Origin: Angiostrongylus vasorum | Taxonomy: Eukaryota; Nematoda; Chromadorea; Rhabditida; Metastrongylidae | DNA length: 64,000 bases | Direction: 5' to 3' | NCBI GenBank assembly: GCA_018806985.1 | Contig: JADANN010000256.1 | Location: forward strand, 905,501-969,500 | In this document: positions 7,871-61,793 of the stretch, one piece after another | Layout: every line of letters starts with the position of its first letter | Position numbering within the stretch: position 1 is the stretch's first letter | The notes under the pieces: model-generated | The model's input: only the letters and a program-made list of their open reading frames with translations | What the model was told of the DNA's origin: nothing | Databases searched by the model: none | Made by a program: the position numbers and the translations under genes

Positions 7871-8325
7871 AAAGTGCTACGACATCAAATGTACGATATA
7901 AGCTCGTAATAAGGACACTTTGGCTCAAAAACTTTTGGTGTTCTGAATCTGCACACAAGATTCTCCAGCACTGACAATCCGTGCCTGACTTTCAGTGATA
8001 AATGAGTTTTTGTTGTGATTTGTACCAAGCTGAGAGATTACAATGCTCTGAACAAACTGCCGCCTTCCTTTAAAGGTCACTGGACCAAAACCTCTCACTA
8101 ACCCGAGTAACAGCAAAAAGAAAACTATCGAGCAGAAGAAAACAACGGAAACACAGAGATATTAGAGTGTGTTAGACTAAATCGCCACAACAATAAATTT
8201 ATGTTTCTAAGAACAATAAAACAGCAGTAGGCAAAGTAGATTTTTATGAGAAAACATTAGATACTTTTCGAGGAAAGAAAATGGCAACTGATTTTTTTCT
8301 AAAGAATTCCTCTAAATCGCTGTTT
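7871..8325. other. No recognisable feature
   Basis: AT-rich sequence with only short chance ORFs. Confidence 0.4.
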
Positions 8326-8495
8326 TTCTTCAACAAACAGACACGAGGTTGGTACTATAGAATTTATTGCCATAAAATAGCTGATGATCAATTTGACCTT
8401 TCCAGGGTCTGAAGAAGGCGAAACCGCCGAAACGTCAGCTATTGTATGCTAATAAATTCTATAATACCAACCTCGCGTCTGCTTGTTGAAGAATA
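8326..8495 (+). repeat. HHR-family element with inverted ends
   Basis: About 58 bp at the left (8328-8385, ttcaacaaacagacacgagg onward) is an imperfect inverted copy of the right end (8435-8493, ending cctcgcgtctgcttgttgaa). Between the arms lies the hammerhead-like core. The tail CCTCGTGT-type word is shared with copies at 17.8, 18.0, 23.8, 24.3, 53.4, 53.8 and 58.4-58.6 kb. Confidence 0.7.
8409..8436 (+). ncRNA. Hammerhead-ribozyme-like core
   Basis: CTGAAGA (8409-8415) fits the CUGANGA core. One extra A follows, then GGCG/CGCC forms a perfect 4-bp stem II with an AAAC loop, then GAAA (8429-8432), then CGTC with predicted cleavage after C8436. Helix III is only AC/GU with no loop, so a monomer could not form it; a dimer could, because ACGU is self-complementary. 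Stem I (GGGU/AGCU) has one mismatch. The extra A before stem II departs from the canonical consensus. Confidence 0.5.
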
Positions 8496-9941
8496 ACCGC
8501 GAATTATCAATCAATGGCGAGGTTAATAAAAAGTCGGTCCTGGGAATTGCTTCCAATCAATTCTTCGACAAAAAACTGACCGAGAAGTAAATAATTTGTA
8601 GGCTTTTTGAGTTGGTTTGATTTCAGATCAGTGAACGAGTTCGAACTTCCTGTAGTTCCATTCCGGAAATGCTCTTAGTTCTCCAACTTTCCCTGATTCC
8701 AGATTTGTTCTGTCACCTCACTAGGAATAAAAACACGAAATTAATGCCAAGTACGTGTGAAGAACTTTATATCGTTATGGAGAAACCCTAGACAAATCCC
8801 TCAGAAAATTGTCACAGTGAACTTATTTCCATTCGATTTTTTGAAGATATCAGCTGTTTGATTAGAAACGTTTCAATATATTATTAAAAGACGCCTTCAG
8901 AAAAATAGTTCTTGACCAACAACAGGTAGTTCCAAGAAAATCTTTTAGAGTTCCGTTGTGAGGCGTTGCAGTTGGAGATATCGTGCGCTAATATAGTTTA
9001 GGATAGTTGATAGAAAAGGCTAGAATAGAAATCCCTAATTATGACAGACTAAGCAGAAAAAATCAGAGCGAAAAATTTGCAGATGGTCATTAGAGGTGAA
9101 AAAATCCAATTTTTTTGACACAATTTTAGAAGCACATAGACTGGTGAAACTACTAGGGATTGGTGTACATACAGAAGAAGTATCGCCTCTCCCCAGCAGT
9201 TCTTTTTTCGAAAGAAGTTTATCGAAGCGTTTTCAAGCGATCACAGTTGATTTAAGCTCGCATTCAGCCGTAACGCATTCATTCAGGTAGTGGTGTCGAC
9301 GAAATGCAGAGTCGGACGAGTAGTCTAGTCGCTTGACTAGATGAAGCTAGCGCTTCCGAGCGCGGCAGCCAATAAAAAACGCCACCGAGTACGATAGGCC
9401 GCCCGGCTGGCGAAAAACAAGTCCAGTGAACGAGTTGAGTTCTATACACTGAATTTTCATGATAACCACGATGAACTTGGCCTAGATTCTTTCATGATAG
9501 CACGCTCGCTTCAGAATAGTGACGGAGCCTAAAAACTAGCGCTACCAGTAGGTTTGTTGAATCGCTGGGCGCTAATGTTTGGTAACAGGCTAAGTTAGTG
9601 ATCCGGAATGCCTTGAATCGCTGTAGTCTAATCGAATCGTCAAGAAAACATGAACGCATTTGAATTTGACTTTTTCTTCTTTGGTGTCACTGCGAAATTT
9701 TCAAACTTACCGTCTGGAATTCATGAAAAATATTATGGCTTCCCAAAGATCAATTTGAATATTTGGTGCTTCATAAGTTGTTCTTTTACACTTTTTTCAA
9801 CCAGAAGACCTTTTAAAAACAAGTTGATACTACCTTTATCGTAAATGCCTCTATGTGAGCAAAGTAAGGAATCAAAAGTGGACATTGACTAAATATCGTA
9901 AATGTGCTGTTATTGATGGCAAAGTCCATAGGTGAATGAAC
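8496..9941. other. No recognisable gene
   Basis: Contains a slightly GC-richer patch at 9290-9430 without an extended frame. Nothing else is seen. Confidence 0.4.
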
Positions 9942-15480: not shown

Positions 15481-17689
15481 TAAAAGGTAACAATGAAGAA
15501 TTTATAGGAGGTGCATTCGTAGCTTTCGCTAATATCAAATAAGTCATTGCTTCTGGATTGCCTAACAAAATTTTAAGTCAACTAGAAATGTAGAGAAGCA
15601 CTAAGCAACCTAGGTGATACCTTGATGTGATTTTATTGAAAGCCACTACAAGCTTTGTTGTCCTCATGGGGATTGTAAACTGAGATGAGAATACCACATT
15701 ATTGTCAAAATTCCAATTGATACGGTGAAGTATTTATTTTATTTGTGATCCTTAAAGTGGGAAAAATTGGAACAAGACTACTAAGAACATGTTTACGACC
15801 ATACTGGTAAAAGCGACAGTAGAATATCGCATTGAGCAGATTTTATAGAAGTAAATAGCTAAGCAGCTCAGAGCCAGGAAGAATCCTTGCAATCTTTCAA
15901 AGCGATTTAGTCGGCTGGTGTTGACCCGAGGAAGCTGCAGCACGGCTCTGTTCTACGATTCTTCGCGATACGTAACACCGGACTGCGCAAGTGTAGAAGT
16001 AAGTACTAGTTAAACTACAGCCAAAGAGTTTCCGTATCAAATGAATCAGCTAAAATCTCAAGAATAACACCGGTTTAGGTAATAGAATGAAATATGAAGA
16101 CGAACTTACTTTCTCAATCTGCGGAAAGGATTAATATTGGTGGAATACCTCAAGATGAACCTTGGACTGACTCCGAATCGAAAATCATTTTCATGAGCAC
16201 CTGTGTCCAATCTTAATTTTTGAGTTTGGTCACGGGATTATGCCAACCATGACATCATCATTAAATTTTAATAGGGCAAAACTCAGTGCGACATCCAGTT
16301 GAGCCACACAGGTTTACAAATAAGCTCGAAAGTCTCTTCTCTATCAAAAAACCGAATAACGCCTTTATAGCTGAAATAGAAATACCATGCCAGAACAGAG
16401 ACCACCCTTAATTAGAATCTCAATCAAATTGGATGGTAGGAAGCAGACACCAGTTGCCAGATATGAAACTTCTAGAATCTAGTGGAAGCAATCTTACGAA
16501 AGTCCCTGCTTATTAAGAAGGAATGACAGCATGAAATTAGTTGAGATGTTGTTTCCAAGGATAATTCGTAGGCACCGATTTCGATTATTTAGGGAGGAAT
16601 ATGAACTTTGGACAGAGATGGAGTGCTCCTTGGTACAAGTGCACCACTGCTGAAACCAATTAATTGTTTTCAAACAAAGGTTACGTGCTTATTAAAATCA
16701 TAAAGAGGAAGGAGGGTAGATTAAAGAAAATGGGTAGCAGTCGAGGGAACCTCGAAGGCCACATCGATACTCATCTTCATCTTAACAAAGGCAACAACAG
16801 ATTAGTGAAATTATTCATGCGATGTGAAGTAAGTAAGAGGATGTGTCCCTGGCAGAGAGCAAATCAGCCGATGCTTATGATTTCAAAACGTTTTTTCATC
16901 GAAAGGCTATTCTGTTATACACGAGATAATCGAAGGAACAAGAAACTCCTAAAGGTTTTCGATTGAAAAATATTTCGTTGGAGAAATTTCACAGCTTTAC
17001 GAGGCTCGTTAAGAACGATGAATACAAATAAGTGACCGAATTTCCGAAGGAAGGCGTCTCGTAAAAGATGACCGACGAAGCCATTATATCAGAGTCATCA
17101 TTTAAAATTCTTCCCAATTTGATTGAAAAATCGCTTAACACTGGTGGGACAGAGACCTTGCTGTGCTATGCTATGCTATATATGCTATGTGCTTATCTCA
17201 AAAAGGTAGAGATATCGGTGAGCAGAAATAAAGGAAAAATGAGGTGAGGCTTAGAAGTAGGAGGACTGACACTAAGAAACATAATTTCAAGTTTCAGTGC
17301 TTAAGTTTTTCATTATGAAAAGCGGAAGTCGGGAAGAATTTTCGTCACCATTGAAAGCATGCGATTAATTAAATAGCGAAAGGACGACGGTCAATAGCAA
17401 ATTTATAGCTACTCGTCGTTTTTCTGACACTTGACACTAACATCTAAACATCTACATTGATGAAAGTGAACGATAAAATATTGCTCGTTGATGAGCCTCA
17501 TCGAGTTGGCGAATATTCAATGACAAACTCATTACATCTAAGAACAAATAAAGAATCGGTAGAACTACTTGTAAGCGGTAGTGGGAGTCAAGACGTTGTT
17601 CTATGTTGTACAAATGAATTTGCTTTCCTTTTCCCGAATGTGAAGAACGGAATATAACTGAACTACTGGAGAATATTGCCGATAGATTC
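15481..17689. other. No supported gene
   Basis: Open frames at 16664-16966 and 17457-17657 are unremarkable in length and have no recognised domain. Confidence 0.35.
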
Positions 17690-17850
17690 AGAGAAGATCG
17701 GAAAGAGTGGACAGAAGAGTGGAAGGAGGAGCCGTAGGTAATCGACTCGGATCAATCCGGCTCTGAGGAAGGCGAAAACATCGAAACGTTAGCCGCATGA
17801 AGTCTTTTATCAACCAAGTGTTGGTTTACCAACGAAAGAATACGTATCGA
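17690..17850 (+). repeat. HHR-family repeat copy 1 of a direct pair
   Basis: Shares the leader (atcgactcggatca), the hammerhead-like core and the tail (tttatcaaccaagtgttggt) with copies at 53.3 and 58.4 kb. The next copy follows in the same orientation. Confidence 0.65.
17763..17790 (+). ncRNA. Hammerhead-ribozyme-like core
   Basis: CTGAGGA at 17763-17769, GAAA at 17783-17786, predicted cleavage after T17790 (GUU). Stem I is perfect over 5 bp: CGGCT (17758-17762) with AGCCG (17791-17795). Stem II (GGCG/CAUC) has a mismatch and a wobble, so this copy is probably decayed. Confidence 0.5.
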
Positions 17851-17864
17851 GTGGAGTGATGGAA

Positions 17865-18065
17865 GCGTTACGAATGTGCTTTATGCTTTTCAAAAAAGTT
17901 GTTTCAGAAAATCAACGAAATAAGTGGTTCCACGACCGACTTTCTAGTAACGTCAGCATTGATGAAGAAGGGCTCTGAGGAAGGCGATCCTACCGAAACG
18001 TCAGCTTTAACGGAATAAAGAATAAAGTAACACCTCGTGTTTGCCCAAACAAGAATATCGAGGAC
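17865..18065 (+). repeat. HHR-family repeat copy 2 of a direct pair
   Basis: The core and tail (ggaataaagaataaagtaac, then cctcgtgtttgcc) match the family. Predicted cleavage sites in the two copies are exactly 212 nt apart. Confidence 0.65.
17975..18002 (+). ncRNA. Hammerhead-ribozyme-like core
   Basis: CTGAGGA (17975-17981), GAAA (17995-17998), GTC ending at 18002. Stem I GGCT/AGCT pairs with one wobble. Stem II is reduced to GG/CC by mutations. Same extra A before stem II as the other copies. Confidence 0.45.
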
Positions 18066-20994
18066 ATAAGTGATTTTAAGTTTGTTGTTCGATCTTTTCT
18101 TCTATTCTCTACCTACATGTTGGAAAAAGCAAGACTTTTTTCAATATCTATTCACCGCGTGCTCTCTTATCGATGGATTTTGATAAGCCTGTGCTGTCCC
18201 TATTAGTGATATAATCTCAAGGCGTACAGACGAATAGCAGCAGTGGTAGATGGCGAGAAAAAAAAACACATTATACCGCATGCTAGTAGTGTTGTTGTAA
18301 CGGTAAGCAACGTAGAAAATACACTACAAAAACTGAAAGAGATATTGACTATTGGGCTTAATCAAGACAGCGACGAGAATGTGCGAAGTTGAATTGTGTA
18401 AGTAAGCACAACTTCTAAACAATTTATAATTGTGGAGTTCGGGCCACTTAGCTGTCCATTGGCGACCATTGTGCGTCGTGAAAACGCTTGCAAAAACGCT
18501 TGAATTTTCACGAACTGAGTGAAGTGGAACCGCAGTGAACAACAGCTTCCACAACGGCGGCTATGGAATGAGTCTGCGTTCGAAAAATTCTTCCCACAAA
18601 GGCCTGTCGATCACTTCCATGGTGCACAACGTAGCAGCGATGAAGACAGTGGACATTCTTGTGATTGGTACTAGTTAGTGAGAAATTTGGATGAATCCTG
18701 CACATCTTTTCGATATAGTGGAAACTTACTGAAGATCTCAAATTCACAATTGAGTCACTCTTCTGGTCGTCTCTGTCGCGTTCAAGAGATTTTTTCTATC
18801 ACTGACTCATAGTAGCATCATGTGGATACCGCACACCGTAAGAAGTGGACAGCGAAAGAATTGCTCTAGAGAAGCAATTTTGCCGAAAACTCAGCAATTG
18901 AATACGAAAACCTACTGGAAAGCTCGTCCTCCTCGTTAAGAGCAGCTCGCGAGAACACTTGTCCAATGCCGAGGTTAGCTGAAATTCGGTCTCGAAAAAT
19001 TATTCGAAAATTCCAGTAGCTCTTCAGGGTTGATTAGCCAATGCACAGTCTCACTCCACTGTAGAAGTTCTTGGTACGATGGCTGGCTTCCATTGTTAAA
19101 TGTAGGAACTCATTCCATGTAGCGTTACCATCACAGCGAAGGCCTATTTTAATCATGCGAATTGAGTGAAGTTTACTTTCTGTTTAAACAACCGCATAAG
19201 CAAAATTTTCACTTTACCCAGTTCTCCCACGCAATATGAGCTCGATTAGAGAGAAAGTGCTCGAAATTAACTGTGAAATTCTGCATTGGTCACAGTACAG
19301 CTCTCATCTGGCCCCCTCTGCATATCGTCTGGTTAGATCGCTACAACAAATGACTTCGAGGTTCGGGAACTTTAAGTCAAAGCTTTGCGTTATCGAAAGT
19401 ATGATGAATTCGTAGTGAGATCGATAGACCAAGCCAACCCGTACCGATAGTGGGGGTCCCAGTGAATTAATATTGTTGAATTTCGAATGAGTGATAGATT
19501 TCAAATAGACTAAGACTAGTTTAAAACGCTATCCGGGAAAAGTCCACGCAGAGCGAGTTAAGTGTTTGCGATAGCAGTGGGCGTAAGTATAACAGAAGTG
19601 GGCTTCAGAACAGTTCAGACCAAAAAGGAGAAGAAAGCTAAGCAACGGTAGCTCAGCTAAACGAAGTGCAAAGAGATTTTCCGTATAAACTTCTGTACTT
19701 CTGTTAATCAAAACAAGAAGAACAAGAACGTTCGACATAAAAAATGTTCACTTTTTTGGTCGTGCTCGCCACAATAAACTGAGTCCTTACGAATGAACTG
19801 AAAAAAGAAAACTACTACCATGAATTCGATCAGGTTGAATTCAGCTGTCACGATCAGCGCCGAGCTTGGTGCTACAAGGAAACTGAAGTTTTGCTCCACT
19901 TTAACCGTATCAACGAGGACATCACTATTTGCGAAGAGCTATTTCGACTTAGACGGTAGCTTACCTTTGACGAAGATGCTCTACCCAGTGAGCATGAATC
20001 GCGCTAAACTCGAAAACACAACTTGGAGAAGGCACCCAACTTCAGATGCATCAACATCGGTCAGCAGCTCTTTTCGATACGCTACCGAAAACCAATGTCG
20101 TTCGAACAGGTCAATATCTAAGAATCCCTGCTGCTTACTCTACAAAAGTGAGTCTTTCTGAAGTAGACTGTGCCTGGCGATGAGTTTTGCCTGGTAAGAG
20201 ATCAAGACGTCTTACGCCATCCAGCGCCGTAGCAACAAGCACCTGGCAACTCATTCGAGATCCGATCCACACAATCGTAAGCTAGCACTATATTCAGTGC
20301 CACTTGTTCTCAAATATGCCACTGTTGTGAAGAGAAGAAAGTGATCGAAATATTTCAGAGTTCAGCTTCTACATCGTCACGTCGGGATTCATGCTGCATA
20401 ACTAACTTGCAGATAAATGGAGAATTTGAGCCATATTCCAGCCACAGGGCAACTTGGATATGTCACTTTGAAATCGTAACTTGTCCTTGTTGCTGAAACC
20501 CATTTATGCTAGAAAAAGTTCAGGGGGCTATAACAATCCATTCTCTCGTCAACTTCTATTTGCAACTCTCGTCGTTCCAAGAGAAGAAGAATCCTGTTCT
20601 ACGAAAAAATGACATGATTTTCCTGGTAATAATCGTGACTTCAGGGTACGCAAACGTTACCATAACCAGATCTAAAATACTCATCAAGAGTAATACATGG
20701 TCCACCCCGACTTCCTCTTTCGCTGGAAGTGCAGAATAGGAATTCTTTAATTTAGTCTTTTACGCTTTTCTTGAGGCTACCTGCCACATTATGTTCTTTT
20801 TTGATTTCCTTAGAGGAGATAAAAATTAAAGAATGAATTTCCATAACTACCGCTTAACTTGCCTGTTAGTGTGTCTTGCATTAGAAGTCCTCCTCAGCCG
20901 AAAATATTTTAATGACCATTTCAAGAACTTTGGAGGAAGCTCTACATCTTCAGCAAGAGAAGTCCCGACATAGGCTTTCTGCATAGTTCATATT
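18066..20994. other. No recognised gene; possible decayed coding stretch near 19.85-20.16 kb
   Basis: One plus frame across about 19850-20160 reads as protein-like blocks (YKETEVLLHFNRINEDI, LTFDEDALPSEHE, IGQQLFSIRYRKPMSFEQ) separated by stops. It may be an old transposon or host pseudogene of unknown family. Nothing else stands out. Confidence 0.25.
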
Positions 20995-23749: not shown

Positions 23750-23789
23750 GATAAGCTAACACGAGGTTGACGAAAATGTTTACTCGGCT

Positions 23790-23817
23790 AACGCTTCGAC
23801 GCCTTCATCTTCATCCG
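23790..23817 (-). ncRNA. Hammerhead-like core, mutated
   Basis: The minus strand reads CGGATGA in place of CUGANGA (U4 changed), a stem II GAUG/CGUC with one wobble, GAAGC in place of GAAAC, and GUU followed by AGCC. Core substitutions predict loss of activity. Confidence 0.4.
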
Positions 23818-24205
23818 AAGTGATGATCCAAGTCGATGATACACATTCGTTCCCCTCTCGATGTGATGTCTTTGTCGTCGTATCTAATCGAATCTTCTTC
23901 GCTGGAGCACCGTTCGAACTAAACAACCTCACCCGGCGATGCTCTTTTATACAGGACGGTTGTTATTGATGCTGATTGCCCGCTGGTAATAAATTGTTTT
24001 TCAATGAGCAATTCATCCTGCAGCAGTCTATAGCATTATCAGCTACCACATAGCCAATCAATATTTTTAAAAAACATCGACAAAAAAGCATCGTCGGATG
24101 AGGTTGCGAGCGGTGCTGCATTGAAGAAGGTCCGACTGAATACGAAAACAAAGAGACCACATCGATAGAAGAACAAGTGTGTATGGTCGACTTGGATCAC
24201 CGCTT

Positions 24206-24238
24206 CTGAGGCAGACGAAAACGACATTGGCCGAATAA
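24206..24238 (+). ncRNA. Hammerhead-like core remnant
   Basis: CTGAGGC...GACGAAAACGAC...GGCC aligns to the family but has lost A9 and the GAAAC block. Family context is the only support. Confidence 0.25.
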
Positions 24239-24312
24239 ATCATTTTATCTGCTTCGTGTTAGAAGAGAATGCACACTGATTAGTCACGCCAAGGTCCAAG
24301 GAAAGTTGGTGT

Positions 24313-24329: not shown

Positions 24330-24760
24330 TCTTAAGCGTTTTTTATTTTACTGCCTATTCTTTTTAATGGCAGGGTATGTTGCGAAATACAACTTCAATG
24401 GTGCTGAGATATTTGCAAAACTCCGGACTTCAGGTGTCTGTGGTGGGGGAACGAACACGCTATTGTCCTTTCCAGGGAGTAACGCGTTCACCACCACACC
24501 ATGCGAGTCCTTCGTTTCGCCTGTCTCTCAGCTATTTCTATCGACCTCTACCATCAGCAATCACCCATCAGTGGGTTTGATCTGGAGAGCCCAAATCGGC
24601 AGTGAACCCAGTTAAGCTGAGGCTTTAATTGTAATCACAATCTTAACCGAAGGACCCGCATGGTGTGGGGTGAACGCGTTACTCCCGGAAAGGACAATGG
24701 CGCGTTCGTTCCGCACCGCAGACACCTGCGGTCCGGAGTTTTGCAAATGTCTCAGCACCA
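24330..24760 (-). repeat. R3 foldback copy flanked by a 17-bp duplication
   Basis: The left arm (about 24361-24520) and right arm (about 24650-24760) are inverted copies of the same R3 segment: ccgcatggtgtgg, gcgttactcccggaaagga, a cagacacctgcggtccgg-like segment. A unique R3 middle (atcagcaatcacccatcag, gttaagctgaggct) separates them. The leftmost part resembles the R3 terminal repeat (gcgttttttattttactgcc). ORFs at 24367-24615 are incidental. Confidence 0.7.
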
Positions 24761-24777
24761 TTGAAGTAGCTGAACAT
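24761..24777 (+). repeat. 17-bp direct repeat, right (target-site duplication)
   Basis: Identical to 24313-24329. Confidence 0.8.
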
Positions 24778-50094: not shown

Positions 50095-50415
50095 TCACCA
50101 TGATGCTGAGATATTGCAAAAGTCCGGAGCTCAAGTGTCTGCGGTGAGCAACGAACGCGCTATTATCCTTTCTAAGGGCTGACACGTTCCACCACCACAC
50201 CATGCGAGTCCGTTTCGCCTGTCTCTCAGCCAGTTCTACCGATCAATGCCATCAGCAATCACCAATCAACGGGATTGATCTAGGCAGCCCAAATCGGCAA
50301 CGAACCCAGTTAAGCTGAGGCTGTAGTCGAAATCACAATGTTCACTTTTTTTTATTTACTGCCTATTGACACTTTTCACGACAGGGTATTATGTGCGGCA
50401 GGTAAAACTAAACAT
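50095..50415 (-). repeat. R3 copy followed by a mini-unit
   Basis: A full R3 arm (gatgctgagatattgcaaaa, cctttctaagggctgac, atcagcaatcaccaatcaac, gttaagctgaggctgtagtc) is followed by a terminal-repeat-like ttttatttactgcctattg and then gcggcaggtaaaactaaaca, as in the copy at 54.7-55.0 kb. Confidence 0.7.
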
Positions 50416-53140: not shown

Positions 53141-53254
53141 TTAAGACAAACTTCCAATTAAAGATCTTTTCGCCAAAGAGAAATAGGACGACACGTGCGA
53201 GATTTTTAGTGTGGGACCGTGGTACAACTATACACCAGTATAATATATTCGATA

Positions 53255-53435
53255 TTCCACTGAAGAAGATCCGTCTCGGTACGACAAGGAAGACGCCACA
53301 TCGAGAAGACTAACATCTATGGACCACCGACACGGACCATCGTCTCTGATGAAGACAAAGACGTCGAAATGTTAGCCGAATAAAACTAATTTATTAACCC
53401 CGTGTAAGCTCAACAGTTTATACACATGTTGGCTA
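53255..53435 (+). repeat. HHR-family repeat, well-preserved core
   Basis: Leader (gaagaagatccgtctcggta, gacgccacatcgagaag, ctatggaccaccgacacgga), core and tail (ttattaaccccgtgtaagct) match the minus-strand copy at 58.4 kb. Confidence 0.7.
53346..53373 (+). ncRNA. Hammerhead-ribozyme-like core, canonical CUGAUGA
   Basis: CTGATGA (53346-53352), stem II GAC/GUC with the outer pair lost, GAAA (53366-53369), cleavage predicted after T53373 (GUU). Stem I CGTCT/AGCCG pairs at four of five positions. The extra A after CUGAUGA and the loopless helix III are as in other copies. Confidence 0.5.
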
Positions 53436-53699
53436 TTTTACTGCCGAGGTTAAATGACGGTCCGTTTGAAAACTTCTGTACTCAAAAGAGGTACCAAAAG
53501 GCAGACATCGTATTATGAAGGCATACACCGTGCCATGAAGATTACGAAAAACGAATAATGAACGAATGAGTAAGAAACACGAGACATAGACATACTGGAT
53601 ATCTTTTTAGAAGCAGAAGGTAGAAGAAGAAGAAGTATAAGAACATGGTTCCTGCTGAGGTCATGAAGGTGTGTGACAGCAGATTGCCTGTCCATTCGG

Positions 53700-53790
53700 C
53701 CTTTCTAGGTGGAGAAGAAGGCCAATCCGCCGAAAAGTCAGCTATTGTGAACAAATAGTGTAGTAAAAAGCTCGTGTCTGCTCATCAAGG
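53700..53790 (+). repeat. HHR-family repeat, degraded
   Basis: gagaagaaggccaatccgcc, gaaaagtcagctattgtg and a ctcgtgtctgctcatcaagg tail align to the copy at 8409-8493. The CUGANGA block is disrupted (GTGGAGAAG). Confidence 0.5.
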
Positions 53791-54654
53791 CAATAACAAG
53801 TTGTAGAAGAAGATTCTATGTGAAATGTCGGTGATAAGAAAACATCAGATATCTTGTTGATTATCGAGAGAGCACAGTAGAAAGCTCGATCCAACAACCT
53901 GTGAAATACAGCGTTCAGAGCGGAGTGAGTCAGTCCAGTTTATCAGACAACTCAAGGCGACCTCTTTGAAGAAATGTTGTAATGAACAGATATAACGCGA
54001 CTCTCGTAACGTTGCGTGAGTAACCTCTTCCAAGTACTATTTTTAGCGCCACATGGTTCTGAATACATTCTTGGACATGTTTTAATTTTTTGGTTATACT
54101 AGTCACTGGAAAGGAGTTTAGATTTTGGGTAATCTATACAGTATATTAGATAAGGGCGTGATATATGTCTATAACAGATTTATTTATGAGTGGAAGATAA
54201 ACACATTCACGCATGAAAGCGTGTTAAGAGAATGCAATTCTGAGTGGAACAGTTTTTTTATTGTTGCCCATAGCTACTACTGGAGGAATAAAAACCACTC
54301 CAAATAACCGGAGCAATGGACCACTTGAAGTTGATTTGTAATGAGTTTACTAGAACCACATATAGACACACACTGATCATAGCTGGGTCATTATTCTTGC
54401 TGGCATTACATTTATAACCTGTAATGTTGTTACATTCAAAAGCAGTGGACCAAACATCTTGCATTCCACTACTTCAAAGCGAAATCTTTCTGTAATTCGC
54501 ATTTCATTGCTGTTTGATGTTCAGTTACACTTATTGGTCTCGACTTGATGTTTCCAAAAATGGAAGCACTGGGAGTCGACACTGGGATTAAACTAGGTTG
54601 CAATGAAACATAACTCGCCAAAATTCTACTCACACTTCGGCGATAAAAGTCTAT
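53791..54654. other. No recognisable feature
   Basis: AT-rich. Confidence 0.4.
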
Positions 54655-54970
54655 TAACAGACGTATGCGGTGGGAAACGAATGCACTATTACCCTTTCCG
54701 GGGGCTAACGAGCTCACCACCACACCATGCGGGTCCTTCGTTTCGCCTGTCCCTCAGCTATTTCTATCGACCTCTGTCATCAGCAATCACCCATCAGTGG
54801 GCTTGATCTGGGGAGCCCAAATCACCAATGAACCTTGTTAAGCTGAGGATGTAGTCGAAATCACAATGTTAACTTTTTATTTACCGCCTCTTACAATTTT
54901 TTCAATGCAGGAATTACGTGTGACACAACCACAGTGATGCTAGGGCAGTAAATAAAGAGTTAACACTATT
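54655..54970 (-). repeat. R3 copy with an appended 97-bp TIR unit
   Basis: An R3 arm (54660-54867) is followed by a unit bounded by 21-bp inverted repeats: gttaactttttatttaccgc at 54868 and its complement ending at 54964. The small unit contains cacaaccacagtgatgct, the normal start of an R3 arm, so it looks like an internally deleted second R3 sharing a terminus. Confidence 0.7.
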
Positions 54971-55529
54971 AACAGATGGGCTGTGATGTTATGGCTCGTT
55001 CAGATTCCAACACAAACAAATTAACAACTCGGACATGGACGGAACATCTCTACAAGTGTAGCCAGTACATAAGCTTCATCAGTTTTTATTGTCACGAGAA
55101 TGGAATGTAATGTAGACATAGTGTTTCTTTAGAGAGAAATACCTTCGAGAGCTTTTCAATAACGAAAAGTAGTAACGTTGTTAGGGTATTGAAGTCTCAT
55201 AGCTAATTTGAATAAGAGGCTCTGATGCCAAGGGCGAGAAGCGAGAGGTGCGACTCATTCCCTGATTTCAATATAAGTGAATTTGTAATTCGCGTACTCT
55301 TTAACGGGAAACGCAGAGCAAGCACATTCTAGTAACATTAGGGTAATTACAGCTGAAAGACGGATGAAAACCAATCAAAACACGCTAATATTGGAAATAT
55401 TGGCACTGATTGTAGGACAATACAATAGTGGAATTTTCGCTGCGCTACTCATACCTTGCTCTACATTATTAGGTAAAATATACTACGTTGATTGGACACA
55501 TAATCCAAATATCGAAGAATATTTCTTGA
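54971..55529. other. No recognisable feature
   Basis: AT-rich. Confidence 0.4.
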
Positions 55530-55925
55530 TTCACTCCCAACGGTTTGTCGCCTCATCGTAGATGGGAGGTGTTTCTGGGTATCGGGGCGCGATGTACCGC
55601 GGTAGGATTCATCCGCCCGACGGGGTCTCCCATGCTGGGAAGAAGTCCAGCGTTTCCATTAGAAGGACCAGCTAAGAGTAAACCAATACCAGGATCCACC
55701 ATTGTCCTGGTATCAAACTACTCGCATGATGGCAAATCCTCCTCTGATCCACAGGGACGGCGGACTGATTGTGGTGGTGACGACCTGGGGGCAGACTTTG
55801 GCTAGGCTGACCTCGGGACTACCGAGAACCACAATCGCTAAACCAGCAAAATTCCGAAAAAATGGAGATTATGTTGAGGCTCGCACAACCAGTGACGACG
55901 TGCCATACAAGTATTCAAGTAAATA
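55530..55925 (+). repeat. R4 repeat, near full length
   Basis: Head caacggtttgtcgcctcatc, GC-rich middle, body agctaagagtaaaccaatac, aatcctcctctgatccacag, gcagactttggctaggctga, and tail caagtattcaagtaaat. ORFs 55545-55805 and 55702-56043 are incidental. Confidence 0.75.
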
Positions 55926-56507
55926 TTTGTTGATTTTAAGTTTGCTTTTTTTTTGCTTTTTTGTTACTTTGTTGCGGTTCAAAGAACACCCACAAGCTGG
56001 AGTTGTCGGTCGACTAATTGCTGGATTCAATGCTGTCACATGAAACGTCGTCACAACAAAAAAATTCGGAGTCACAACGCAACGCACCAAACTCCCATCC
56101 GATCCACAAAGGTTGCCAGCAGTGATGAGCTGAGATTGGCCAGTACATCTATTTCGGCACTCCACAGAAAACAACATGTGACAGCTATTTCGGCATGCCA
56201 ATGAATGGAGAACGCCACAGAAGATCACTATGTTGTGCCCTAATCCACGCACACCCGTACTCCACTACTTTTATGGGAGACGACTGTAAGACGAGACACA
56301 TATGAGAAGGCCTGGGATCCGTAGGGCATATGACAATGGATGGTCTAAGTATCAAGGTGTATTTCTTATACATTGCATATTTCATTCATATTTGTCTACT
56401 TTAGATACCTTTATTTATTATGTGCTTCAAAAAAATGACGCTGATTTTCTCTTTGTAAATATTGACGTATTGTTTTTTGGATGAAGCGTTAGAGGATAAA
56501 AAAAAGG
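55926..56507. other. Unclassified
   Basis: Overlapping frames at 55953-56252 on both strands; possibly old transposon sequence, but no domain recognised. Confidence 0.3.
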
Positions 56508-56655
56508 GTAAAGCTCTTGGCGTTGATCAATCCTTGAGGGATCGTCATGCATTCGACTTCATTAAGCATCGTTGGAAGCGATTGAATGCATTTGTGACCT
56601 TTAAAATGACTCGCGGTGGCCTACCGATATATCGAGCCAGCGCTGTAAGAGCAAT
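56508..56655 (-). repeat. R1 SINE, 5'-truncated
   Basis: 3' half only (aaaaagggtaaagctcttgg to ctaccgatatatcgagccag); the central domain and head are missing. Confidence 0.75.
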
Positions 56656-58375
56656 GAAATTTTTCGTTATTTTGCACAAAGTGATTTGTTTCTCAACCTC
56701 ATTGTGGTATGAGAGAAGAAACTGCTTGCAAAAAGCAGATTATAAGATCAGCAGCAAAATTGTTGGCGAGAATTGACGAAGTTAAGGCAACCAACACTTC
56801 CGGAGAAAAATCTGCACCATGAGAAGGTAATGGCAGTTTCTTACTGGTGCGGTCAGGGGAATAATAAATAGTAATTCTCTAAGGCTCAGTGAAATCATAG
56901 AGAATCTGGAAGGTATTTAAATAAAATCACACGTTGTATTTACAACAGCCATTTCGACAACATGTCATACAATCGACGCTGTAAAAGTTCGGGAATTTGA
57001 ATACGAAGTTCAGCTCCATCTGACACTCTTATCGGACTTCTTGACTTCTTAAGCTCACTTTTAGACTGCTGATGGGCGGGCTAAACGATAAAAAAACGAT
57101 CATGGAGGATCCTGCGCTGCGACCAGGAGAATTCAGTGGGACGGATTCTGTGTCCTTAATTAGTCGAATTGGTTCATACCATCCATGTTCGGATAGACAT
57201 ATTCAAATATGCTCGTTTAAATGTGAAATTTGTTTACTTCAGATGTTAATTCGAATAGTGCTTTGCATTGAAACAATAAATAATTAGATGACAGACAGTT
57301 CCTCTTCAACAAATGAGCCCTAGACCACCCCTGTTAAGCCCAAGAACATAGCTATAATAGATCCAGACTGAAGGAAACATCTGCACCCGTTGCTAGCCTT
57401 CCGCTGAAAACAGTGGAAATAAAGTACGTGGTAAGAAATGTGTCATGCTTTCCGTGTACTTCGATTTTAGAAGGACCACTATGCAGCGCTAACGAATCCA
57501 AGAAAGAGTTAGATACTCATCTGTTAAATTCAAGGTGGAAGTAAACCTAGGCTACGACAGAGCAGCCGAACTAGTCGTAGGTGTTTTCTCGCCGAAATAG
57601 GAAAAGCACATCATACAGGAACTGTGGTGCTCTTTATTCTTCTCGATCAAGCAAAGTTCGCTGTGAAATTCCGGCATTGGACAGAAACAAATGCAGACTT
57701 TAATGATGCCCGGTCGAGTTTTTTCTACCCTTATAGCATTACACTTGGTTTATAGAGAACAACTGATAATATGAGATTGAAAGAAACAGTAAATGATGTT
57801 TGGAAAGAGCTACGAAGCAACTGTAACCTGTCGTATCCCTGTTGAATAGCTTTGAGACCAATAGCTATTCAACTTGTGAAAGAAGTGGGAGAAAGGAGGA
57901 AATAATGAAATCTACCAAAAGTCGGCAATAAGCGAAAAAAGTTGAAGCGAAGCAAAGAACTCATCTCAAAATTTGAAAGGAAGTGGATGTTTTGAAGGAA
58001 AAGAAAGGAAAAAATTAAGGAAAGATTATGATTAGTATTGTAACAAAAAAAGAAAAAGCAAAGACGTTCAGAGTAAATCTATATGTGGAGGTTCATGGTT
58101 AATATCAATTCTATGAATTAATAATTCTTGAAAAGTGAGAAATTACTTGTAAAATTTTTTCTTCTTCCTTTTTTTCCGCTCACTTTTTCTTTTCCTTATA
58201 ATCTTCTCTTTACCCTTCGCTTTATGCACTTTCAATTCTTTAAAAGTTACTGGACAAACACGTCGTTTGCTACAAAAAATATTCTACGAAGAAGTGGACG
58301 GGTGGCTGTTGAACATCTATAAAAATTTTATCCTTAGCACTTTGCAAGGTATTAAATACTGACCTGTTAATATGT
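56656..58375. other. No supported gene
   Basis: AT-rich with short chance ORFs. Confidence 0.4.
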
Positions 58376-58592
58376 ATTCTTTCCTTGACAAACCTACACG
58401 AGGTTGATAAACAATTTTTATTCGGCTAACGTTGCGACGTCTTCGTCTTCATCAGAGCCGATGATCTGAGTCGATGGTCCACGGTTCTTCTTCGTTTCGA
58501 TGTGGCGGCTTCGCTTTCGTATCCATGTGGAGATAGTTGAAATTGCTTATCAACCTCGTGTGAGCTTATCAAAGAAGGAATACATGTTGATT
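58376..58592 (-). repeat. HHR-family element with inverted ends
   Basis: The left end (58376-58412, complement of gataaacc-type tail with acgaggttgataa) is inverted relative to the right end (58546-58585, cttatcaacctcgtgtgagc). The hammerhead-like core sits on the minus strand between them with its leader (complement gacgccacatcgaaacgaag-like). Same architecture as 8326-8495. Confidence 0.7.
58428..58455 (-). ncRNA. Hammerhead-ribozyme-like core with perfect stem II
   Basis: Minus strand: CTGATGA (58455-58449), extra A, GACG/CGTC perfect stem II with AAGA loop, then GCAAC instead of GAAAC, then GTT|AGCC. Stem I CGGCT/AGCCG is perfect. The A-to-C change in the GAAA block predicts inactivity. 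The second stem II pair is A-U here and G-C at 8409-8436, a compensatory difference. Confidence 0.5.
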
Positions 58593-60404
58593 AGTAATAC
58601 CGACGTCAAAGGAAAGTCCGTTTTGAAATACTGACCTGCTAAAGAAAAGTGGAGATAAACATCACAATCTCAACGATACTTCATAAAAACAGCATGTCTC
58701 TGACGGAGGGAAGTATGGAAGGACAGGGAACAATGATTGCACTAGCAATATTGATATTAATTTTTCACCCAGTAAGAAACTACAGAAAGGTTTCCTATGA
58801 AAGAAAAAAATAAACAATTTACTCATTTCTATAAAAAAAAATAAAAAAAAGACCTGGAACACTTGCAGACATTTTGCGAAATTTTTTGTGATTTGTTTGG
58901 AATTCCGTGAATCCAATTTACCGCACCAGTGTCTGAAGGGTGTTTAAAATTACCAGTTATTTTTGATAAACTCATCAAGAAGTTCCAGATTCGTTTCACG
59001 TAGAAACTTGCGAAAATCAGCTCTACATAAGATCATCATAGCTTATGTATGGAACTGATATGCCAAGAAGGTGTGCTATTATTGAACTCATAGAAACGCT
59101 CTAACGTCAAACGCCAGTACAAAAACTGTTCGCATGAGGATGAATTACACCACACAGGCTCTGGAAGTGATGTGGGCAAGTATTACGGTAGTGGGAACCG
59201 AAACGAGAAATGGCATGAGTCGTCGTGGTGGACGTCAACGACAAGCAGCTTGATCGGGTTGAAACGACACTATTCGAAGCAAAGAGGATGATTCGGCTAA
59301 AAAACAGAGTTCGCTCTGTTTAACACGAGAAAGGAAACCGTAGAAAGCTGCAAAATGTAGGAGAAGACTGGCTCTTAAAAGCGGAAGCGCTTTTGCAAAA
59401 AGAAAAGAACGAAAATCGCTTTTTTTTACTTCCAGAGCACTTGATCGTAATTGGAATTGTGCGAGTTGCTCTTTGAAACAAAGATGGATCACGAAGTAAA
59501 AAAGTTTGTTGACAAACACTAGAAAGCTCAAAAGCTTCTAAAAATTCTGATGACTTGCTAATTTTAATAATAGTAGAGTTGGCGAATGGAATTGTAAACA
59601 ACGAGTAGGACATCAGCTTGGGCTTTCTGATATCCCACAATAGACATTAACCATCATGTTGACCCATATGAGAGAAATAAGAGCAAACAAAAGAAAAGTT
59701 AAAAAAAAACACAACTTGGCATGAATGAATCCACCTGGGCACTTTTTTGCCTATAAATCCGTTCAGATTTGAAGTCCCATATGAAAAAGCGTTAAATTCT
59801 GAGGAAGAACACGGCGAATGTCCTAGTTTTCATTAGGAATTCGGCTGATTAATAGAAGCGATTTCAGAGATTCATTTGTGATTTTAAGTATTTCAAAGGA
59901 TTTTACGGGTTGAGGTAAGGTCCGTTGGTTCGTGTACGTAGAATCTACTCTTTTCCGAAATCAACTTGTTGTTAGAACTGAGCTATGAGTTCGAAGTAGA
60001 TCGGAACATCATATTATACAAAATTGATGATGACATGCATAAACTGAAAGGAAAGATACCCACTACCACTTAAGCACTGAAGGTGGACATAATTTGCGAA
60101 TTAAAAAATTCACCCGACGGTACGAACACTAGAAAGAATGGAAAGACCTAGCCACGGTAGAGCGAAGAGGATGAAAACGTTAAATTGGTAAGTCCAGTAA
60201 ACTATCCATTTTAAAAAAACGATGCTTTTATTAAAAGATCTGATGCTGTTCTATGCCTATAATCTTTCAAGTAATCGTACAAGCGCTGTTAACACTTCAC
60301 AAATGCTTATTTAACTTTTTAGTTACCACATAACGATATTTAACAGTTATCCACATTGAGAAGAAACATGAAGCACATTCATACACATGCATTCACACAC
60401 CCAC
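58593..60404. other. No supported gene
   Basis: AT-rich. Minus ORFs at 59235-59640 overlap in two frames without support. Confidence 0.35.
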
Positions 60405-61165
60405 ATACATACATACATACATACATACATACATACATACATACATACATACATACATACATACATACATACATACATACATACATACATACATACATAC
60501 ATACATACATACATACATACATACATACATACATACATACATACATACATACATACATACATACATACATACATACATACATACATACATACATACATAC
60601 ATACATACATACATACATACATACATACATACATACATACATACATACATACATACATACATACATACATACATACATACATACATACATACATACATAC
60701 ATACATACATACATACATACATACATACATACATACATACATACATACATACATACATACATACATACATACATACATACATACATACATACATACATAC
60801 ATACATACATACATACATACATACATACATACATACATACATACATACATACATACATACATACATACATACATACATACATACATACATACATACATAC
60901 ATACATACATACATACATACATACATACATACATACATACATACATACATACATACATACATACATACATACATACATACATACATACATACATACATAC
61001 ATACATACATACATACATACATACATACATACATACATACATACATACATACATACATACATACATACATACATACATACATACATACATACATACATAC
61101 ATACATACATACATACATACATACATACATACATACATACATACATACATACATACATACATACA
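60405..61165 (+). repeat. (CATA)n microsatellite, about 190 units
   Basis: Uninterrupted tetranucleotide array of about 761 bp, bordered on both sides by degenerate cacacaca/catacaca words. The long YIHT and MYVC ORFs on both strands are its translation, not genes. Confidence 0.98.
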
Positions 61166-61793
61166 CACATACACGTACAAACAATCAAATAGTGTTGAAT
61201 AGCTTAAAAACTCGATGCGTACGCCTCTCAGTTAACTACTCCAGGACTTCCTGAACAAGGGTCCGAACGCAAATAGGCGTTCGATGGCTAAGAATCGATT
61301 GGCGAATAAAGTCCCATTGTTAATATTTCAGAAGAAAACTGCCTGCTTTCTAAATTTTCGTTTCTAAACATTTCTTATTGGTGGATTGCAATTTACGGAA
61401 CTTCATACCGAAAAGCATTTCTCCCAAACCTTTAAGATACTGAGGACTATACTAACGTAGTTAATGTAGTCCTAAGTAGTAGCCAGTATCTGCTAATCAG
61501 GTGAACGAAGATAGAAAGAAGAAGAGGAAGAAGGTAGCTATCCGTTTGTGGAAGAATAGAAATATAATTGGTTAAATGTAGAATCTTAGAAAGTTATGGC
61601 ATCTGGTTGTGTCAAAGTTAATGCCGTTATTAAGTATGCTCATCATTTTGAATTAACCAAGCCACATTCGGCACACCTGCAGTCTTAATTTCAACAAAAA
61701 AAATGTTAGTCTATGCATTGAATAGTAATATCTTAGATACAACTCCGACTTATATAATGTGAATTGGACCCGTCGTCGTTTCGTGAATGTCGC
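61166..61793. other. No recognisable feature
   Basis: AT-rich. Confidence 0.4.

Follow-up and report, generated by a model that had tools for sequence, protein, structure and literature searches.

What is the short repeat that recurs through a 64,000-nucleotide stretch of the Angiostrongylus vasorum genome (contig JADANN010000256.1 of assembly GCA_018806985.1, positions 905,501 to 969,500 of the forward strand; hereafter called the window), and is the conserved block inside it a ribozyme? An annotation made earlier from the letters of this DNA, called the first-pass annotation here, had described a dispersed family carrying a core similar to that of the hammerhead. Our analysis indicates that the repeats are very probably decayed pseudo-long terminal repeats (pLTRs) of Penelope-like elements (PLEs), that is, Penelope-like retrotransposons, in this strongylid nematode, and that the block conserved within the repeats represents a minimal hammerhead ribozyme of type I. 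The copies in the window are fossils, most of them probably dead. According to the available text of PMC7761336 (like the other papers, cited here from excerpts), minimal, helix-III-poor and probably dimeric hammerheads are already known from Penelope pLTRs, and the present family adds a member to them.

Repeat and motif scans located eight repeat units of about 200 nt each in the window, which confirms the dispersed family. They are labelled by the window coordinate of C3 or its equivalent (8409, 17763 and so on; see Table 1). When a profile is built from the eight copies, its matches below E 0.001 in the window are these eight and two inverted arms belonging to copies 1 and 8; the E-values of the eight copies are circular, as the profile was made from them. 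A covariance model of seven copies recovers those seven with 45–62 bits; elsewhere in the window no site is convincing, the next best reaching 15.2 bits. The pattern CTGANGAN{5,30}GAAACGT has 3 matches in the window compared to 0.05 expected by chance, and a stricter hammerhead descriptor has 3 compared to 0 in 300 simulated windows. Conservation peaks in the core block and in the downstream CAACCTCGTGT stretch, while the upstream part differs at about half of the compared positions. Two subfamilies can be told apart, A (GAC..GTC, GTTAGCC) and B (GGC..GCC, GTCAGCT), with copy 17763 being intermediate. The best-preserved copies are those at 17.76/17.98 kb, and not those of the 53–58 kb stretch that had been cited for the family.

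We now consider how well the block fits a hammerhead. Positions are numbered by the hammerhead convention, with 11 nucleotides counted as catalytic. All 11 are kept in four of the eight window copies (8409, 17763, 17975 and 53346), and in the other half (53712, 58455, 23817 and 24206) catalytic nucleotides are lost, so that the shared core of the first-pass annotation holds for four copies only. In the catalytic columns 6 of 85 cells deviate, compared to 38 of 166 in the remainder of the block, a result that 1,327 of 100,000 random column sets equal. Two departures from the canonical hammerhead had been regarded as constant. One of them, an extra A after A9 (position A10), is indeed found in all eight copies; the other, a helix III consisting of ACGU alone, with no closing loop in the monomer, is intact in four (8409, 17763, 17975 and 58455). 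Pair 2 of stem II is A-U in three, G-C in three and G.U in one of the seven aligned copies. As to stem I, which had been said to pair in most copies, the first four pairs are all formed in three of the eight, three are formed in four, and two in the remaining one. The ten base pairs proposed are present in 80% of the cells over seven copies, compared to 73.6% in shuffles (4 of 500 as high) and 16–43% in slid controls. A type III layout of copy 8409, with the hairpin before the core as stem I, was also considered by eye on the fold, and was dropped because a G would then sit at the cleavage site and because the arrangement was not noticed in the other copies.

The genome of the window (280 Mb in 468 contigs) was then searched by exact pattern. 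With the extra A, G10.1, C11.1 and C or U at H17, there are 5,424 matches, while the reversed control gives 0. The same pattern has 40 matches when H17 is G, 18 when the extra A is omitted, and 2 when four nucleotides, the only insert length searched, are placed in helix III. Keeping CTGANGA and GAAACGTHAGC fixed, leaving the extra A, G10.1 and C11.1 free and including A at H17 gives 6,640 matches. Among 58 distinct strings matched in this last search, 54 have A as the extra letter, 3 have G and 1 has T. From the printed match lists we took 129 distinct stem II blocks, and in these pair 2 (10.2–11.2) is a standard pair in 104 cases (G-C 59, A-U 33, G.U 12), compared to a shuffle mean of 87, with none of 2000 shuffles reaching 104. 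The compensatory change seen in stem II at first pass is thus real at this pair. It is important to point out that the blocks are related sequences and therefore do not represent independent events; much of the covariation at pair 2 may perhaps be a single difference between the subfamilies. We also fetched 64 genomic loci (L125–L188), with a reach of 1.5 kb only, 30 of which were picked for a changed first pair of stem I (base 1.1). With this choice of loci, stem I pairs 1–4 are formed in 43, 57, 53 and 55 of the 61 distinct sites, respectively. In a group of sites called the ATAC family, most of those looked at retain the core, stem I pairs 1–4 and stem II.

The next question is what the block belongs to, and for this the 64 loci were searched by tblastn with PLE proteins derived from three of them (L150, L151 and L152). 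Similarity is found in 36 of the 64 loci, and in 27 it has the same sense as the block and lies upstream of it; without the three query loci, the numbers are 33 and 24 of 61. In genomic copies, the upstream open reading frame (ORF) carries a reverse transcriptase (RT, with YVDD) and a GIY-YIG endonuclease, and it ends about 200 nt before the core. The GIY-YIG match of L150 is above the Pfam cut-off (24.2 vs 22.6 bits), while both matches of L152 are below theirs (RVT_1 24.8 vs 29.6 bits, E 2e-5; GIY-YIG 17.7 vs 22.6 bits). Downstream, the ATG and MPRLIESRSWELLQDVPAKY found in L151 at +128 from the core are the start of the next ORF, inside the repeat. Ten of the 64 loci have an ORF start of the form MPRLI[EK]SRSW, placed at +125 to +129, and the window copy 8409 retains MARLIKSRSWELL at +105. 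In genomic copies, the block hence follows the end of one RT/GIY-YIG ORF and precedes the start of another, and the Penelope-like home suggested by the first-pass annotation is borne out. The ORF has 214 protein relatives at E<=1e-5, many of them with PF00078, PF26215 or PF01541. Among the matches listed (120 of the 214) are the strongylid nematodes Ancylostoma, Haemonchus, Necator, Angiostrongylus, Heligmosomoides and Nippostrongylus, and the top local identities among the named relatives listed are up to 89%, in Angiostrongylus.

The ends of the repeats and their arrangement can also be compared with what is known of pLTRs. In the largest family, the 5' ends are ragged, with the shared sequence beginning anywhere from about −30 to beyond −1500, and the 3' ends cluster near +115–125 and +158–173. 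Neighbouring exact cores in the 64 loci are head-to-head 9 times, tandem twice and tail-to-tail never, where three head-to-head pairs are counted double via overlapping loci. The window itself has a head-to-head palindrome at 23.76–24.26 kb; neighbouring copies share a strand at 17.8 and 53.5 kb, and inverted pieces of the 3' flank stand ahead of copies 8409, 58455 and, in a short form of 34 nt of B type, 17975. For Adineta vaga, PMC3846280 describes pLTRs of about 200 bp, one with the first 12 amino acids of the ORF, as well as head-to-head inverted pLTRs, junction palindromes, partial tandems and solo pLTRs; the ragged 5' ends and head-to-head pairs agree with this anatomy. In L140, L145, L153, L163 and L177, PLE ORF pieces were observed upstream of the core in the opposite sense, as is expected of inverted or head-to-head insertions.

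A number of results weigh against a ribozyme in a Penelope pLTR. Among the seven window copies, two-sided pair changes are matched by 225 of 500 shuffles, the cells with such changes by 96 and further pair types by 162, and the covariation score, matched by 33 of 500, stands out weakly. Folded alone, seven of the eight 46-nt cores are no better than their shuffles (z −0.98 to +1.33), that of 58455 being the sole one that clearly beats them (z −2.79). The likeness to the hammerhead finds no echo in Rfam, as there is no hammerhead match in the window at either the gathering score or E<=10; in a control, one of four loci with pattern matches reached the type I gathering score. Genome-wide, the compensation claimed for stem II does not extend beyond pair 2, since pairs 10.3–11.3 (88 of 129) and 10.4–11.4 (97 of 129) show no excess, with 1900 and 1468 of 2000 shuffles being as high. 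Pair 1 of stem I is uncompensated in the 61 sites, where 2.1 mostly stays U when 1.1 changes. Concerning the link to PLEs, the window has no similarity to PLE proteins at E<=1e-4, a Pfam search of 50 of its 117 stop-to-stop ORFs of at least 75 amino acids gave no RT or GIY-YIG match, four ORF pieces of L151 are without a Pfam match, and no same-sense upstream ORF was found in the 11 loci classed as subfamily A. Finally, according to the excerpts of PMC11167929, the ribozyme of the Poseidon element PAc of Anolis carolinensis cut only with protein present and was dispensable for insertion in vitro, and the RNA-seq examined there shows no ends at its cut site.

The failure to find such an ORF in the 11 A loci opens the option that subfamily A, to which five of the eight window copies belong, is a short non-autonomous derivative moved by PLE proteins, in the manner of a metazoan retrozyme. 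We regard this as possible, if doubtful. The 3' end of the subfamily still resembles, by eye, that of a PLE pLTR, and PLEs have been proposed as helpers of retrozymes (PMC7761336). However, the query proteins come from another subfamily, so that a diverged A ORF could escape them, the loci extend for just 1.5 kb, and L181, which is A-like but classed as "other", does have an N-terminal PLE piece upstream. Moreover, retrozymes have canonical hammerheads in tandem repeats (PMC7229834), whereas the present block lacks a helix III loop and is linked to an ORF, subfamily A being a possible exception. As an observation made by eye, TATAAAAG occurs upstream of the core in this subfamily (in the window at 23.8 kb on the minus strand, and in L144) and might be a promoter.

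What appears most worth following in the genomic copies is the overlap between the ribozyme and a splice site. A GT..YAG stretch of 108–158 nt ends 3 nt before C3 in 20 of the 68 sites with enough flank. Eight of the remaining 48 sites join the end of exon 1 (14 nt, with at most 4 mismatches) straight to the core, and these intron-less copies occur in two subfamilies (L139, L146 and L188; L143, L184 and L185). Of the other 40, a good part has the YAG in place, with no donor recognised by the search used. The position of the intron is constant in two subfamilies with different intron sequence (L150 and L140 with it; L139 and L185 without). These observations suggest a GT-AG intron that would be spliced in genomic copies, with the 3' splice site inside stem I. 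With the site this close to the core, unspliced RNA would take the fourth base of stem I from the AG of the intron, and spliced RNA would take it from the final base of exon 1. The fourth base is G in 55 of the 61 sites, and in the intron-less ones it is G in 5 of 8 and A in 3 of 8.

One can speculate, very tentatively, that the ribozyme and the spliceosomal intron are interlocked, such that splice-site recognition and folding would draw on the same nucleotides and compete, and each RNA would become either a spliced template for translation or a self-cleaved copy. Introns in PLEs are already known (PMC11722881, PMC3846280). The excerpts of PMC11167929, PMC3846280 and PMC7761336 contain no statement on the position of the ribozyme relative to an intron, and we do not claim novelty here. 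In any case, copies with and without the core-side intron constitute test pairs for the role of the ribozyme in Penelope replication, which is "still a mystery" in the words of PMC7761336.

If the block does act as a hammerhead, its helix III imposes a constraint on the mechanism. With ACGU and no loop, stable pairing requires two copies. Within tandem or read-through transcripts, a pair of cores would thus be joined via the palindromic ACGU, and each stem I of the dimer would consist of the 5' strand of one copy and the 3' strand of the other. For copies 17763 and 17975 this cross-pairing is 4/4 in both directions; the minimum-energy co-fold of the two pieces is not the dimer structure. The RNA would be cut after H17, in L151 about 100 nt ahead of the ORF start, and the cut would define the 5' end of the element RNA. 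Such cleavage is likely.

Alternatively, the block could be a hammerhead by descent that no longer cuts and is kept for another function, such as the 3' splice site, the translation start or recognition of the template by the RT. The core is indeed abutted by a 3' splice site, covariation is seen at only one pair of stem II, and PAc can insert in vitro with no need of its ribozyme (PMC11167929). The greater constancy of the catalytic positions, the rarity of G at H17 and the retention of core and stems in the ATAC family argue the other way, and we consider this scenario rather unlikely.

The remaining two alternatives deny the hammerhead or the retrotransposon altogether. The long complementary arms of 8409 and 58455, the inverted piece in 17975 and the palindrome at 23.8/24.2 kb could suggest a DNA transposon of foldback or MITE-like (miniature inverted-repeat transposable element) type, with the repeats as its terminal inverted repeats. 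However, own complementary arms exceed shuffles in just two of the eight copies, the ends are ragged at 5' and clustered at 3', and an RT/GIY-YIG ORF is attached to the repeat. Penelopes are known to have inverted head-to-head pLTRs and palindromes (PMC3846280), and together with the inverted 3'-flank pieces these explain the long hairpins without a DNA transposon, which makes this option highly improbable, and it was rejected. Weaker still, and hardly credible, is the reading that the first-pass annotation had itself named as a possible refutation, namely a conserved coding segment of a transposon with an accidental likeness to a hammerhead: a frame TCT GAN GAA GRC ... GAA ACG TYA GCY runs through the core of the copies without a stop, with the variable N7 as third position, and the four A copies differ unevenly by phase (core 0.17/0.27/0.13, upstream 0.40/0.30/0.24), but these excesses fall in different phases in the core and upstream, the phases are level over all eight copies (core 0.32/0.28/0.26, upstream 0.55/0.54/0.51), the frame with a long upstream stretch varies between copies so that no single one is favoured, two translated copies have no candidate protein relatives, and the PLE ORF of genomic copies stops well short of the block.

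We now compare the pLTR hammerhead with known systems. The closest are the minimal type I hammerheads of PLEs (Cervera & De la Pena 2014 and Lunse et al. 2017, via PMC7761336, PMC6155905, PMC7229834 and PMC11722881), in which helix III is likewise missing or minimal. These occur as thousands of dispersed copies in animals, some in tandem PLE pLTRs, and may cleave as dimers. Going by the descriptions in the citing papers, the present family is set apart by its strongylid host, by A10 in nearly all copies and by an intron whose end falls within stem I. With it, the minimal hammerheads of Penelopes reach a large strongylid family, which in a single genome has over 5,000 exact pattern matches. Among the titles listed by literature searches on nematodes (12 of 479 in one of them), none deals with hammerheads native to these animals. 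PAc (PMC11167929) shares the pLTR-ORF-pLTR layout, the RT and GIY-YIG domains and a hammerhead near the ORF start, but its ORF begins at stem II, 26 bp before the cut, whereas here the predicted cut precedes the start codon. An extra A between A9 and G10.1 is present in the plus-strand hammerhead of chrysanthemum chlorotic mottle viroid (CChMVd), which is still active, although this A moderately lowers trans-cleavage (PMC3705267). The viroid feature can accordingly be nearly fixed in a cellular lineage as well. The hammerheads of newt satellite DNA and metazoan retrozymes (PMC7229834) are also of type I, and helix III is weak in those of amphibians, which are efficient as dimers; unlike the present family, they have contacts between loops 1 and 2 and sit in short tandem repeats that are non-autonomous. 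The Penelope families of Adineta vaga (PMC3846280) resemble the present one in the size of the pLTRs, the ORF start within the pLTR, the head-to-head pairs, the palindromes and the partial tandems; the words ribozyme and hammerhead are absent from the text of that paper.

Table 1. Repeat copies, predicted hammerhead cores and associated features in the window (window coordinates)
Feature	Position	Strand	Remarks
C3 (or equivalent) of the eight copies	+8409, +17763, +17975, -23817, +24206, +53346, +53712, -58455		
Copy 1, subfamily B, long hairpin	8307..8506	+	profile match, self-inverted blast match
Core C3..H17 of copy 1	8409..8436	+	11 catalytic nucleotides, stem II 4/4, stem I 3/4, mismatch at pair 2
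AG of putative intron 3' end (TTTCCAG), copy 1	8404..8405	+	3 nt before C3; suggested by the intron of genomic relatives
Relic of Penelope ORF start in pLTR end: MARLIKSRSWELLPI	8514..8558	+	+105 from C3; MPRLIESRSWEL at +128 in L151
Copy 2, subfamily A-like	17653..17853	+	profile match
Core of copy 2	17763..17790	+	11 catalytic nucleotides, stem I 4/4, stem II 3/4
Copy 3, subfamily B	17867..18069	+	profile match; tandem to copy 2 at 212 nt
Core of copy 3	17975..18002	+	11 catalytic nucleotides, stem I 4/4, stem II 3/4
Head-to-head inverted copy pair	23756..24262	.	534-position palindrome alignment, 67%
Core of copy 4	23790..23817	-	U4 and A15.1 lost
Core remnant of copy 5	24206..24228	+	5-nt deletion, A9>C
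Copy 6, subfamily A	53223..53430	+	profile match
Core of copy 6	53346..53373	+	11 catalytic nucleotides, stem II 3/4, stem I 3/4, 15.2 = U
Copy 7, subfamily B	53589..53805	+	profile match
Core of copy 7	53712..53739	+	C3 and U4 lost
Copy 8, subfamily A	58362..58557	-	profile match; own 3' flank inverted in front (arms 58540-58588, 58369-58417)
Core of copy 8	58428..58455	-	stems I and II 4/4; A13>C (GCAAC)
17-nt direct repeat AAATACTGACCTGYTAA, one mismatch, flanking copy 8	58354-58370 and 58626-58642	.	possible target-site duplication

Some further details of single copies can be added. Copy 1 folds with a minimum free energy of −90.3 (z −14.4), its palindrome spanning 8313–8506. The direct repeat flanking copy 8 is longer than the 8–10 bp duplications of the A. 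vaga Penelopes (PMC3846280), and a shared 13-mer at comparable spacing was obtained in 8 of 3000 random draws, where simple-repeat draws were skipped yet counted. Direct repeats of 9–11 nt at 17763 and 53712 were taken as internal or low-complexity, and a test for target-site duplications at four places gave nothing scoring 8 or more.

Two family patterns have 0 matches in viral contigs and 0 in GTDB contigs. Three matches of a pattern in viral contigs were taken, from ORF lists, as chance occurrences within phage coding sequence, and a further viral pattern gave a single locus (L124) without an Rfam match. Separately, IMG/VR contigs commonly contain the canonical hammerhead pattern CTGATGAGTCC..GGACGAAAC, in at least 120 stretches (L004–L123), one of which, L059, reaches the Rfam type I gathering score.

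Apart from the pLTR family, the window has other dispersed repeat families, at 24446–24647, 50144–50345, 54672–54873 and elsewhere, and a 57-nt inverted repeat (24392–24448 and 24711–24767, 91%) near the head-to-head pair. A hairpin at 446–529 with sub-threshold mir-2011 matches on both strands is probably a repeat palindrome, and positions 60375–61190 hold a microsatellite of ACAT/ATGT type, about 800 bp long, with sub-threshold mir-297 matches.

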